From a virus: DNA of 46,837 bases. Positions 18,293 through 43,388 of the stretch are shown here, in pieces (within the stretch, counting starts at the first letter, position 1; each line of letters starts with the position of its first letter). A program made the position numbers and the translations under genes. Location of the stretch: positions 1 to 46,837 of IMG/VR virus record IMGVR_UViG_3300037247_000801, one strand, 5' to 3'. Under the pieces are notes generated by a model that worked only from the letters and a program-made list of their open reading frames with translations, had not been told where the DNA came from and ran no database searches.

Positions 18293-19501
18293 ATGTTACA
18301 GGTCGGGCCGCACGTTCGGCCTCACACTTCTTTCGGTGCCGTACTTGGTACCCCTTCTTTTGACCATTTCGTAGCAATTTTCGACACAGAAAAACTCGGA
18401 GGCACTGGCTCTGCGACTAAAACCTTATTGCTTCCTTTTACCGCTGGCTATGAGGTGCATTGGGGGGACGGGGTAATTAACAGCCTCAACACCCATACCT
18501 ATTCGACAGGAGGCGAATGGACTGTTGAAATATTTGAACCTGTTACGACATTTGCCTTCCAAGGTGGCGGCGACTGCCTAAAATTGGTCGATATGGTTAG
18601 CCTCGGAATTGGCTTCGAGATCAACACCACAGGCACTTGGCAAGGCTGTAGGAATATGGTCTACTCGACCACTGACACGCCAGACATAATCACAACCGAC
18701 TTGACTAGTACCTTTAATGCCGCCGAGCTAATGAACGGCAATATCGGTAATTGGGATGTAAGTGCAGTCACGAATATGACCAACATGTTCTTTGGGGCTT
18801 TCCTTTACACAGGAGCTGGTATTGCGAGCTGGGACGTATCCTCAGTAGAGAGTTTTAGTCAATTCGCCTTTGCAGCTCATAATTTCTCTGAAGAAATAGA
18901 CGTTTGGAACATGATAAGTTGCACTAATATTGGAGGCATGTTTAGATCAGCTAATAACTTCAATGTAAATGTAAATGGTTGGGGTGCAACGACTGCGAAT
19001 ATACAGCAGATGAACCATGTGTTTAATGGGACTAACTTCACTCACGATTTACCCGACTGGGATGTGGGTTCAGTCAATACCACTCATGCAATGTTTGGCT
19101 CCACGGACTACAACGGAGACATTTCTAGCTGGGAGCTGACTTCAGCAACCGATACGTCATGGATGTTTGCAGGCAATAATACATTCAATAATCAAGTCGG
19201 TGACGGCAATTTCCCTCTAGTTACCAATATGTCCAACATGTTCGGCGGCGCGTCAAGCTACAATCAAAATATGGGTGGCTGGCTTGTGCCTAATGTCACA
19301 AATATGGCGACTATGCTGGATAACTCTGGATTGAGCACAACCAACTATAATGCGTGGTTAGTCGGCTTAGACGGCCAGACACTTCAAACAAATATCCCTA
19401 TGGGTGCGCAAGGGCTCGTCCATAGTGGCGCGGGCAGCACTGCAAGGGCTAGCCTAATAATTGCACCTGCCTTTATGACAATTAGCGGAGACTCCACATG
19501 A
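18293..19501 (+). CDS. BspA/DUF285-repeat surface protein, candidate receptor-binding protein (402 aa)
   Basis: Residues about 26-85 look PKD-like, with HWGDGVINSLNTHTYSTGG. From about 145 to 350 there are eight ~23-28-residue repeats with the DUF285/BspA signature, e.g. IGNWDVSAVTNMTNMF, IASWDVSSVESFSQF, LPDWDVGSVNTTHAMF, ISSWELTSATDTSWMF, MGGWLVPNVTNMATML. DUF285 repeats are best known from surface and adhesin proteins of bacteria and protists. Here the gene lies between virion genes of a phage and ahead of the largest fibre gene, so it most likely binds the host surface (inference). Stop and next start overlap (ATGA). Confidence 0.75.
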   Translation: MLQVGPHVRPHTSFGAVLGTPSFDHFVAIFDTEKLGGTGSATKTLLLPFTAGYEVHWGDGVINSLNTHTYSTGGEWTVEIFEPVTTFAFQGGGDCLKLVDMVSLGIGFEINTTGTWQGCRNMVYSTTDTPDIITTDLTSTFNAAELMNGNIGNWDVSAVTNMTNMFFGAFLYTGAGIASWDVSSVESFSQFAFAAHNFSEEIDVWNMISCTNIGGMFRSANNFNVNVNGWGATTANIQQMNHVFNGTNFTHDLPDWDVGSVNTTHAMFGSTDYNGDISSWELTSATDTSWMFAGNNTFNNQVGDGNFPLVTNMSNMFGGASSYNQNMGGWLVPNVTNMATMLDNSGLSTTNYNAWLVGLDGQTLQTNIPMGAQGLVHSGAGSTARASLIIAPAFMTISGDST

Positions 19502-33875: not shown

Positions 33876-34082
33876 ATGGAATTATTCGACATGTTAGTAT
33901 TAGCCGACTGGGTGAAAATCACCAGCGACGGCTTGAAGATATACACCTTCAACGATTACCAAATCAGACAAGACTACGACAGCGACCAATGGCTGACATC
34001 TAAAGATGATATGTGTCTTGAGCCTTGCGACACATTAACGGAAGCCTTCGAATATCTCGCAGAGCATGAGAGGTTCAATTAG
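33876..34082 (+). CDS. Hypothetical small acidic protein (68 aa)
   Basis: ATG 33876 with AGGA about 10 bases upstream. Acidic, beta then helix (WVKITSDGLKIYTFNDYQI, then LTEAFEYLAEHERFN). The stop overlaps the next start as TAGTG. Function unknown. Confidence 0.5.
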   Translation: MELFDMLVLADWVKITSDGLKIYTFNDYQIRQDYDSDQWLTSKDDMCLEPCDTLTEAFEYLAEHERFN

Positions 34083-34351
34083 TGACCGCCGCCGAATTCA
34101 AAGAAATCAGAAAGCATTTAAAATTGTCGTGTCGTCAGTTGAGCGAAGTATTTTTTAAGAACGTGACGACAATTCAACGCTACGACGACGACAGGGTGCC
34201 AGTGCCGAAAATGATAGCAAAGGCAATGCGCGAAATGCTTGCTAAAGCTACCGTTGATCAAACCCGACCGCAACTTTTAGACATAGCCTTAAGACTGATT
34301 AAAAGCCCTACTGACATTGAAACTTTCATCACCAAGCTTAATACTCTTTAG
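34082..34351 (+). CDS. Small HTH-like protein (89 aa)
   Basis: GTG start. Residues 5-45 look like an HTH of the Cro/YdaS type (EFKEIRKHLKLSCRQLSEVF, then NVTTIQRYDDDRVPVPKMIA), similar to regulators that read DNA by an arm and two helices. Located between a terminator and the att region, so an excision or lysogeny control role is possible (inference). Confidence 0.55.
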   Translation: MTAAEFKEIRKHLKLSCRQLSEVFFKNVTTIQRYDDDRVPVPKMIAKAMREMLAKATVDQTRPQLLDIALRLIKSPTDIETFITKLNTL

Positions 34352-34371: not shown

Positions 34372-34406
34372 ACCGCTCAAGTTTAGATTAGCTTGAGCGG
34401 TTTTTT
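34372..34406 (+). terminator. Strong terminator before the att region
   Basis: A perfect 10-bp stem (ACCGCTCAAG and complement) with a 10-nt loop is followed by T6. A second 9-bp stem with a 4-nt loop (34418-34439) follows without a T run. Confidence 0.88.
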
Positions 34407-34502
34407 GTGTCTGGGTAACGGGCTCAATTCTGAGCCCGTCGGGGTTTCTTGACCTTTTACTGATAGTTTTTATTCGTTGGTGTACGGTACTCTAAAGGGG
34501 AT

Positions 34503-34723
34503 GACTCAAAACGCCGAAAAATGGCAGACTCAGAAAATGGTGGAATAAGACTCAAAAATAACGAAAAAAGCGGACTCAGAGCCCCTATTTTAGGACTCGC
34601 GCCGTGCTTAAGGTTAATATAACCTATATTCATCTGTGAGCACAAAAAAGCCCAAGTGACTCTAAAACTCAGACTCAAGTGGGTATTTTGGTTGACTCAA
34701 GACCAGATTTAAAAGCCGACTCA
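34503..34723. other. Candidate attP: two groups of GACTCA arm-type repeats around a palindromic core
   Basis: GACTCA or a one-base variant occurs on the same strand at 34503, 34527, 34549, 34573, 34594 (GACTCG), 34658 (GACTCT), 34672, 34694 and 34718. Most spacings are 21-24 bp. The 58-bp gap at 34600-34657 holds AGGTTA-ATA-TAACCT (34611-34625). This arm-core-arm layout next to the integrase gene is that of a phage attachment site. The exact crossover cannot be named without the host sequence. Confidence 0.65.
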
Positions 34724-34777
34724 TAACGGTATTAATCAAGAGGTATATTTTGAAAATACACCTCTCGAAAATCCAAA

Positions 34778-36163
34778 TCACATATCAATCACACCCAAAT
34801 CAACAAGGATATAATTCTCTTCAGCCATAGCTTTAGAGTTACCGAGGATCTTTGCAATATGCAATGAAGTCAGTTTCTTCTCATTGAAGAGCCAAGACGC
34901 CGTTGAACGTCTCATCATTCGACAATTAATATCCTTGGGGAGTATACCCACTCTATGGTCATTCAGCCCCGTTTCAGACCAAACACGACCAGTTCTAACA
35001 TGCGGAAACAAGTAGTGATTTTCTTTCCTAGTCTTCATAAGATCTAAAAGCAACGGTTTAAGAATCTCAGTATTCATTGGAATTTGACGATAGACAGTTT
35101 TGAAATTTGAATTTACATCTATGTCTACATGTTCAGCAGTTAAATGGACAATGTTATTTTCAAAATCCAAAGCACTAGGCATTAGATAAGCCGCCGCCAT
35201 TTTCCTGACGCCAGTAAATAGGTATAGGGCGACAAGAGCCTTATCATAAGGATTTGTTTGTTGATCAATAAGGGGCTGAAAAGCGGAGTATTTCAAAGCC
35301 GTTAAAGCCCCTAGATTCTTACCTTTCTTAGTACTGTATCTTGATGATCTAAATGTAATAGGGCTCTTAGCTACTAAGCCTTCTTCAACGAGATCATTAA
35401 AGAATTGAGTAAACACTTGTTTGCGTGTCCTTAATCTAATGGCTGACTTCCTTTCACCATCAAGAGAGCCGTCCTTAATAGCCTCCATATAAGTTAAGCA
35501 ATTATCTCTAATTGCATCATTAGTCATTATTGTGATCTTCTCACTGACATCAAAACCAGAACTAATAATGAAGTCAACAATGATATTATAATGAGACGAA
35601 GTTTTATGTTTCTCTCTTTTAGTTAGCTTCTTCATTACAGCAGCACGAAACTTTGTTATATCATTAATGTCTTTAATCTGTATTTTGAATCTATTGTTAG
35701 TAATAGAATTAAAGAAGTATCTGCAAGCCCCAAGAATTGTTGGTACTTTATTAGAATAGTCTTCCGCATCACCCTGTAATTTGACAAGTAAGCCGCTAAT
35801 CACTTTAGTTAAACGGTGATTCTCACGCTCAAGAACTAGATTCGCCTCTTTAAGTGCTACGGGATCATTGCTAATACTTTCTTTCATTACGAATTTAGTA
35901 ACGGTCTCTTTAGGTATCACCTCAGGCACTAAGCCGTTAAATATATCCCAAGCCGTTTTACAGGCTCTCTCGCCTTTCCCTCCAATGATATCGCATATAT
36001 CACTTGAAAGTATATTGGCCTCGCGTGGATTCATGGTATAAAGCGAATGTTTTGCCCTTTTACCTAGCGCGTTGGTGAATTGTAAACTCCATACGCCTGT
36101 TTCTTTCCCGCCTCTCTGAAACGGCCTATAGTCTGGCCGTCTTTTTTTGCTATTCTTCGTCAT
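34778..36163 (-). CDS. int: Tyrosine recombinase / integrase with altered active-site residues (461 aa)
   Basis: The C-terminal catalytic domain (about 285-461) has Arg320 in LYLFTGVRKMAAAYLMP, a box II RMMRRSTASWLF with Arg418 but Arg415 where His is usual, LGNS with Asn442 in the place of the His/Trp, and Tyr451 in EENYILV as nucleophile. A core-binding domain lies at about 140-270 and an N-terminal basic region (KKRRPDYRPFQRGGK) may be the arm-binding part. The changed histidines are unusual but occur in divergent family members. The start has the GGAGTAACAACAC leader. It would integrate and excise the phage at the adjacent attP. Confidence 0.85.
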   Translation of the reverse strand: MTKNSKKRRPDYRPFQRGGKETGVWSLQFTNALGKRAKHSLYTMNPREANILSSDICDIIGGKGERACKTAWDIFNGLVPEVIPKETVTKFVMKESISNDPVALKEANLVLERENHRLTKVISGLLVKLQGDAEDYSNKVPTILGACRYFFNSITNNRFKIQIKDINDITKFRAAVMKKLTKREKHKTSSHYNIIVDFIISSGFDVSEKITIMTNDAIRDNCLTYMEAIKDGSLDGERKSAIRLRTRKQVFTQFFNDLVEEGLVAKSPITFRSSRYSTKKGKNLGALTALKYSAFQPLIDQQTNPYDKALVALYLFTGVRKMAAAYLMPSALDFENNIVHLTAEHVDIDVNSNFKTVYRQIPMNTEILKPLLLDLMKTRKENHYLFPHVRTGRVWSETGLNDHRVGILPKDINCRMMRRSTASWLFNEKKLTSLHIAKILGNSKAMAEENYILVDLGVIDM

Positions 36164-36243: not shown

Positions 36244-36441
36244 CTACACCATATGATCTTTCATCCAGCGCTTTAAGGTGCGCTTTGCCTTACTGTCTAT
36301 TTTATTCAAAGCCGTTCTGCCATTTTCCCAATTAGCGACAACCGCCTCAGTTACATTAAGGCTATCGCCCAATGCCTCCTGCGAAATATTCATTACTGCC
36401 CTAAGTGCCTTTAATCTGCCGATGGTGATATGATTCGTCAA
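36244..36441 (-). CDS. Small XRE-type regulator (65 aa)
   Basis: Starts at TTG 36441, 6 bases after GGGAGG. Residues 7-60 are a complete XRE/Cro-C1 HTH domain (LKALRAVMNISQEALGDSLNVTEAVVANWENGRTAL, in positions 10-45). No second domain, so this is a minimal repressor or Cro. Its place between integrase and a divergent HTH gene makes it the most likely lysogeny switch component on this strand. The control region upstream holds 27-bp repeats. Confidence 0.75.
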   Translation of the reverse strand: MTNHITIGRLKALRAVMNISQEALGDSLNVTEAVVANWENGRTALNKIDSKAKRTLKRWMKDHMV

Positions 36442-36811
36442 ACTAACCCTCCCTTTAAATTAACATTCATTATAAAAAACTCAAATATTTTAATTTTTTT
36501 TCATAAGGGCAAAATTCCCCTGTTAATAAGTCCGCTATACCTTCACTCCCATAATGGTACTTTTGCAAACCCAACCCATTTGGATTTTACGCACACTAAG
36601 CGCAGTCGTTATTCCGTTTTTCTATAAGGGTTACTTTGCTCTGTTAATAACATTATGGTAACTATTACATCCAATTTGGATCTTTGCAAGTTCTCGGACT
36701 CAAATTGAGATTTACGCCCAAAAACTCGTATTGACTTTGCTCAATGGCTAACCTAAACTATTCCCATCAACTGGCAGGGAGCTCGTCGATATGCAAACAG
36801 GAGTAAATATT
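36442..36811. promoter_or_regulatory. Lysogeny control region
   Basis: No gene is visible in these 370 bases between divergent HTH genes. Two 27-bp direct repeats (36503-36529 and 36624-36650, 21 of 27 identical) start ATAAGGG and end TGTTAATAA. Further paired words are CCATTTGGATTTT/CCAATTTGGATC and TTTGCAA. It is AT-rich near 36470-36500. Likely operators and promoters for both regulators. Confidence 0.6.
36731..36759 (+). promoter_or_regulatory. Candidate rightward early promoter
   Basis: TTGACT (36731-36736), 17-bp spacer, TAAACT (36754-36759), about 50 bp before the 85-aa HTH gene. A GACTCAAA word lies upstream at about 36712. Confidence 0.5.
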
Positions 36812-43314: not shown

Positions 43315-43388
43315 GCCAGCGTAGTGCGAAATGGACAACACACCTCCGCTCTAGGAGGAAATCTAGGTTCGATTCCTAGCGTTCGGCA
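43315..43388 (+). tRNA. Degenerate tRNA-like sequence, 74 nt
   Basis: The T arm is perfect (CTAGG-TTCGATT-CCTAG). A 5-bp stem CCTCC/GGAGG takes the anticodon-stem position, with a 4-nt variable loop. D stem GTG/CAC. The acceptor GCCAGCG pairs with CGTT-C-GGC through a bulged C. The anticodon loop has only six bases (GCTCTA), so the anticodon is unclear (TCT or CTA). It may be an inactive or odd tRNA. No CCA is encoded. Confidence 0.5.

Follow-up and report, generated by a model that had tools for sequence, protein, structure and literature searches.

An array of GACTCA direct repeats beside a divergent integrase gene as the probable arm sites of a phage attachment site

Nine copies of a 6 bp unit, seven of them exact GACTCA sequences and the others the variants GACTCG and GACTCT, are spread across positions 34503-34723 of a viral genome, all on the + strand, in a block that ends 54 bp from the stop codon of a divergent tyrosine integrase gene (int). 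Judged from its letters and by analogy with attachment sites of other phages, this block probably supplies both arms, P and P', of an attP used by a lambda-type, or heterobivalent, tyrosine integrase.

The repeat array and its genomic surroundings

The virus record (IMGVR_UViG_3300037247_000801) was analysed over its full 46,837 nucleotides, termed the window. It is 43% GC and has a 127 bp terminal direct repeat, as expected of a complete, circular-type record. The features around the array are, by position:

34082-34351, + strand: small HTH regulator-like ORF, converging on int (phrog_14076, E = 4.1e-5)
34372-34409, + strand: intrinsic terminator at the end of the convergent upstream unit, with a stem of 12 pairs and a run of T
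34503-34508, + strand: repeat 1, GACTCA, exact match, candidate P arm
34527-34532, + strand: repeat 2, GACTCA, exact match, candidate P arm
34549-34554, + strand: repeat 3, GACTCA, exact match, candidate P arm
34573-34578, + strand: repeat 4, GACTCA, exact match, candidate P arm
34594-34599, + strand: repeat 5, variant GACTCG, candidate P arm
34600-34657, no strand: repeat-free gap of 58 bp, candidate location of the core; includes a 6-3-6 palindrome (34611-34625)
34658-34663, + strand: repeat 6, variant GACTCT, candidate P' arm, 14 bp before repeat 7
34672-34677, + strand: repeat 7, GACTCA, exact match, candidate P' arm
34694-34699, + strand: repeat 8, GACTCA, exact match, candidate P' arm
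34718-34723, + strand: repeat 9, GACTCA, exact match, candidate P' arm
34736-34768, no strand: dyad with 16 bp arms, TCAAGAGGTATATTTT-G-AAAATACACCTCTCGA; alternative candidate for a core-type site, or a hairpin at the 3' end of int
34778-36163, - strand: divergent tyrosine integrase of 461 aa, the presumed repeat binder (PF00589, E = 2.7e-5, below the curated cut-off; phrog_1, E = 3.8e-18)
36244-36442, - strand: HTH_3 (Cro/CI-type) ORF upstream of int, its TTG start read from the sequence (PF01381, 28.2 bits, cut-off 23)

A preliminary description had listed seven exact and two variant repeats in one direction, as well as a gap of 58 bp holding AGGTTA-ATA-TAACCT, and all of these were located, the repeats being split 5+4 by the gap. 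The spacings from start to start are 24, 22, 24, 21, 64, 14, 22 and 24 bp. Their proposed phasing by two helical turns holds in that the array is regular, with most spacings being 21-24 bp, but one is only 14 bp and the positions fit approximately 11.2 bp per turn and not 10.5 bp. A period of 10.5 bp gives no phase coherence (R = 0.10); the strongest coherence comes at 11.2 bp (R = 0.78) and is of modest significance once the scanning of periods is allowed for (p about 0.02). The conserved unit consists of GACTC followed, in most cases, by A, and there is little information in the flanking columns. No other non-simple 6-mer in the genome reaches the density of GACTCA, with its seven copies in 221 bp; among 60 genomes simulated with a third-order Markov model, the maximum for a 6-mer over the same length was mostly four and never exceeded six. 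As the array is closed in all six reading frames, it does not correspond to a coding repeat.

With the small ORF and its terminator to the left and the minus-strand int to the right, the array is situated at the junction of two convergent units. On sequence grounds, the HTH_3 ORF is a candidate repressor or directionality factor, and beyond it are found an AntA antirepressor, RecT/RecE genes, an O-like initiator and a DnaC-like loader. The HTH_3 ORF and the antirepressor are further lysogeny-type genes of the window, and the phage is probably temperate. No match to the IHF consensus, allowing up to one mismatch, was detected between positions 34372 and 34777. Likewise, the array region yielded nothing resembling a tRNA or host sequence, and an Rfam search of it returned neither a tRNA nor a tmRNA remnant.

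Elsewhere in the window, a convergent intergenic region contains a tRNA-like element (43315-43387, + strand), which scores 22.5 bits against the Rfam tRNA model (gathering threshold 29). Its T arm is good (CTAGGTTCGATTCCTAG), and its anticodon loop could read CTA; ARAGORN made no call. The element may be a decayed tRNA, a phage tRNA or a tRNA-derived att remnant. It was set aside as an alternative core, being 7 kb from int, lacking a repeat array and scoring below threshold.

The integrase

Approximately 180 residues of the integrase lie ahead of the part matched by phrog_1, in register with that profile. This N-terminal region matched no arm-binding model in Pfam, even at E ≤ 10, and an AlphaFold model of the lone protein was uninformative (pLDDT 33). 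In alignment, Arg320, Arg419 and Tyr451 are kept, and the box III residue is apparently Asn. Recombination activity is not certain, because the same alignment places Met416 where the box II histidine is expected.

Comparison with attachment sites of other elements

The annotated attP sites of P2, HP1, 186 and lambda are located as the array is, at the 3' end of int. That of P2 is similarly found between the terminator of a neighbouring convergent gene (ogr) and the 3' end of int, and has TGTGGAC repeats in one direction on both sides of the core; it differs in its motif, in having three exact same-direction copies of a 6-mer in the stretch examined and in its annotated IHF and Cox sites. Coliphage 186 shares the location relative to int, with three arm sites annotated to the left and two to the right, and has same-direction 6-mer copies, one pair of which is 23 bp apart. 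However, its arm consensus is 11 bp long (YAYCGCCAYTY), its core is in tRNA-Ile and its sites number five rather than nine.

Among the phages searched, the most similar integrase, though only weakly so, belongs to Rhizobium phage RHph_N65 (E = 8e-4, with 29% identity over 139 aa). In this phage, a stretch of 46 bp on the 3' side of int matches a Sinorhizobium replicon exactly, within a tRNA-Thr gene, and is flanked by TTTGCGCACC repeats in one direction, one to the left and two to the right, and the positions and spacings of these repeats are conserved in a related IMG/VR contig. From their sequences, both stretches (5163-5420 of L142, the RHph_N65 locus, and 4759-5016 of L143, the related contig) can be recognised as attP sites with a tRNA-Thr core and direct repeats of TTTGCGCACC and ACCTACA; the GenBank annotation of the RHph_N65 stretch lists no att feature. 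The locus resembles the array in that its core is on the 3' side of int and the repeats to the left and right of it share one direction, whereas the core at the 3' end of a tRNA-Thr gene, the number of TTTGCGCACC repeats (three) and the separate ACCTACA set are differences.

Similar arrangements have been described in mycobacteriophages. In the attP of Pixie, two arm-type sites on the left and three on the right are in direct orientation and a further one is inverted, and that of L5 has pairs of sites in direct orientation as well as additional sites (PMC3203893); unlike the array, these have longer motifs and an actinobacterial host, and in Pixie the one inverted site. In the attP of an ICE, efficient integration requires every one of the five arm sites (PMC11963761). 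Arm sites elsewhere are usually longer, at 10-11 bp in ICEMlSymR7A, 186 and CrimD, in contrast to the 6 bp unit here. When same-strand copies of 6-mers were counted in the same way at each locus, the comparison loci reached three to four, versus seven in the array; HP1 attained six, only with the A/T-only word TTTAAA. The view that the same-direction arrangement is unusual was thus not borne out: since in P2, 186, RHph_N65 and Pixie alike arm repeats to the left and right of the core point the same way, it is copy number, not direction, that distinguishes the array.

The identification of the array as the arms of attP is based on its position 3' of int, as in P2, HP1, 186 and lambda, and on the RHph_N65 core with its same-direction repeats. 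The earlier suggestion of arm sites and a core beside the integrase therefore survives as the best reading, given the location, the repeats that flank the gap on both sides and the shared layout, without the palindrome as the core. By this reading, the N-terminal domain of the integrase would bind the GACTC(A) arm-type sites, of which five belong to P and four to P', while the catalytic part would act at the core, most likely within the 58 bp gap. Monomers bound to the arms would bridge to the core through bends in the DNA, forming an intasome that could recombine attP with a host attB.

Candidate core sequences

The palindrome in the gap was dropped as evidence for the core, as inverted repeats equal to it occur in 8.5% of random 58 bp windows of the same genome, a frequency at chance level, and a longer dyad is present at 34736-34768. 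This dyad lies outside the array, with the last repeat on one side and the int stop codon on the other, and pairs at 14 of 16 positions. An attP in which it formed the core (AGAGGTATAT-TTTGAAA-ATACACCTCT), with all nine repeats constituting arm sites on one side, is an unlikely alternative. The dyad is one of the two strongest of the genome, with a comparable structure arising in one in eight simulated genomes, and as no T run follows it on either strand it is not a classical terminator. Yet such a core would leave the P' arm nowhere but inside int, which has no GACTCA on either strand, and the dyad may instead be a hairpin at the 3' end of the int mRNA. Neither of the two core candidates that were searched for in IMG/VR, of which the dyad was one, yielded any copies.

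Other types of repeat array

Direct repeats of this kind might alternatively form a centromere- or operator-like array to which some other protein binds, such as a ParR-type protein, a repressor or an excisionase. In the parC locus of plasmid R1, two sets of five direct repeats surround a gap, which the 5+4 layout recalls, and an HTH ORF flanks the unit of array and int on each side. Nevertheless, no ParM or ParR homologue was present among the proteins scanned, no promoter-like site was found in the region 34500-34740, and the block is downstream of both adjacent genes. The sites of excisionases (RDFs) are direct repeats one helical turn apart (PMC7498355), whereas the spacings here, mostly 21-24 bp, correspond to two turns. 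A role of this general type is improbable.

Slightly less probable again is an iteron-type replication origin bound by a phage initiator, for although direct repeats 22-24 bp or so apart resemble iterons, the O-like gene has no visible iterons of its own and the minimum of cumulative GC skew is about 2 kb from the array, the conserved unit, GACTC(A), is just 6 bp rather than 17-22 bp, the O-like initiator is approximately 5.7 kb away, the DnaA box consensus TTWTNCACA occurs nowhere in the window and GC skew here tracks gene direction. It is the short conserved unit, the distance to the initiator and the lack of DnaA boxes and partner genes that count against both the origin and the operator or centromere.

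Distribution of the integrase and the repeats

Searches for relatives of the integrase, comprising profile scans of IMG/VR with one and two sequences, tblastn against phages and plasmids and a scan of one bacterial genome, returned only remote matches, and no phage with the same integrase was present in these collections. A host was not identified through searches with the terminase, portal and RecT proteins; similarly, no attB, attL or attR was found in the plasmids and phages searched.

A scan of IMG/VR for triple GACTCA arrays identified at least 119 stretches. Among the matches listed, those looked at were coding, simple repeats or unrelated, an integrase domain was present in 6 of 49 records checked, and none was judged to be an attP beside int. 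Another sequence (L046, 204-273) has four sites of the TGACTCA type at intervals of about 20-22 bp, the first of them inverted, just upstream of a repeat-rich phage gene; this looks like an operator array.

Three IMG/VR records, and a short fourth, share portal, terminase and capsid genes with the phage at approximately 65-72% identity. Neither the integrase nor a GACTCA cluster was detectable in these four, some of which are fragments. This joint absence is consistent with int and the array travelling together, a weak indication given that nearly the whole non-structural half differs and that some records are incomplete. A DUF285 (BspA-like repeat) protein encoded directly after the packaging genes (18293-19501, + strand), perhaps a host-recognition protein, is kept in the three longer of these relatives at 37-61% identity.

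Discussion

The non-coding array at the 3' end of int, with repeats in one direction to either side of a gap, matches an architecture found at attachment sites elsewhere. Doubt attaches to the attP reading on account of the unmatched N-terminus of the integrase, Met416, the lack of a consensus IHF site and, above all, the failure to find a host junction.

An intasome assembled on up to nine same-direction 6 bp arm sites with a phasing of about 22-24 bp, by an integrase without the box II histidine and at a locus without a consensus IHF site, might depart from the lambda form in being more filament-like and less reliant on host factors, a speculative proposal with little likelihood of being correct. 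The array is most likely a new example of a familiar attP arrangement, in which the set of candidate arm sites is unusually large relative to the well-known phages examined.

For a divergent phage lineage that has few relatives, the array singles out a specific candidate for the site of integration, one whose repeats are defined. Should the attP reading be true, its many evenly spaced, same-direction sites would be a convenient system in which to study the number of arm sites required by an intasome and to ask whether regular spacing can replace bending by IHF.
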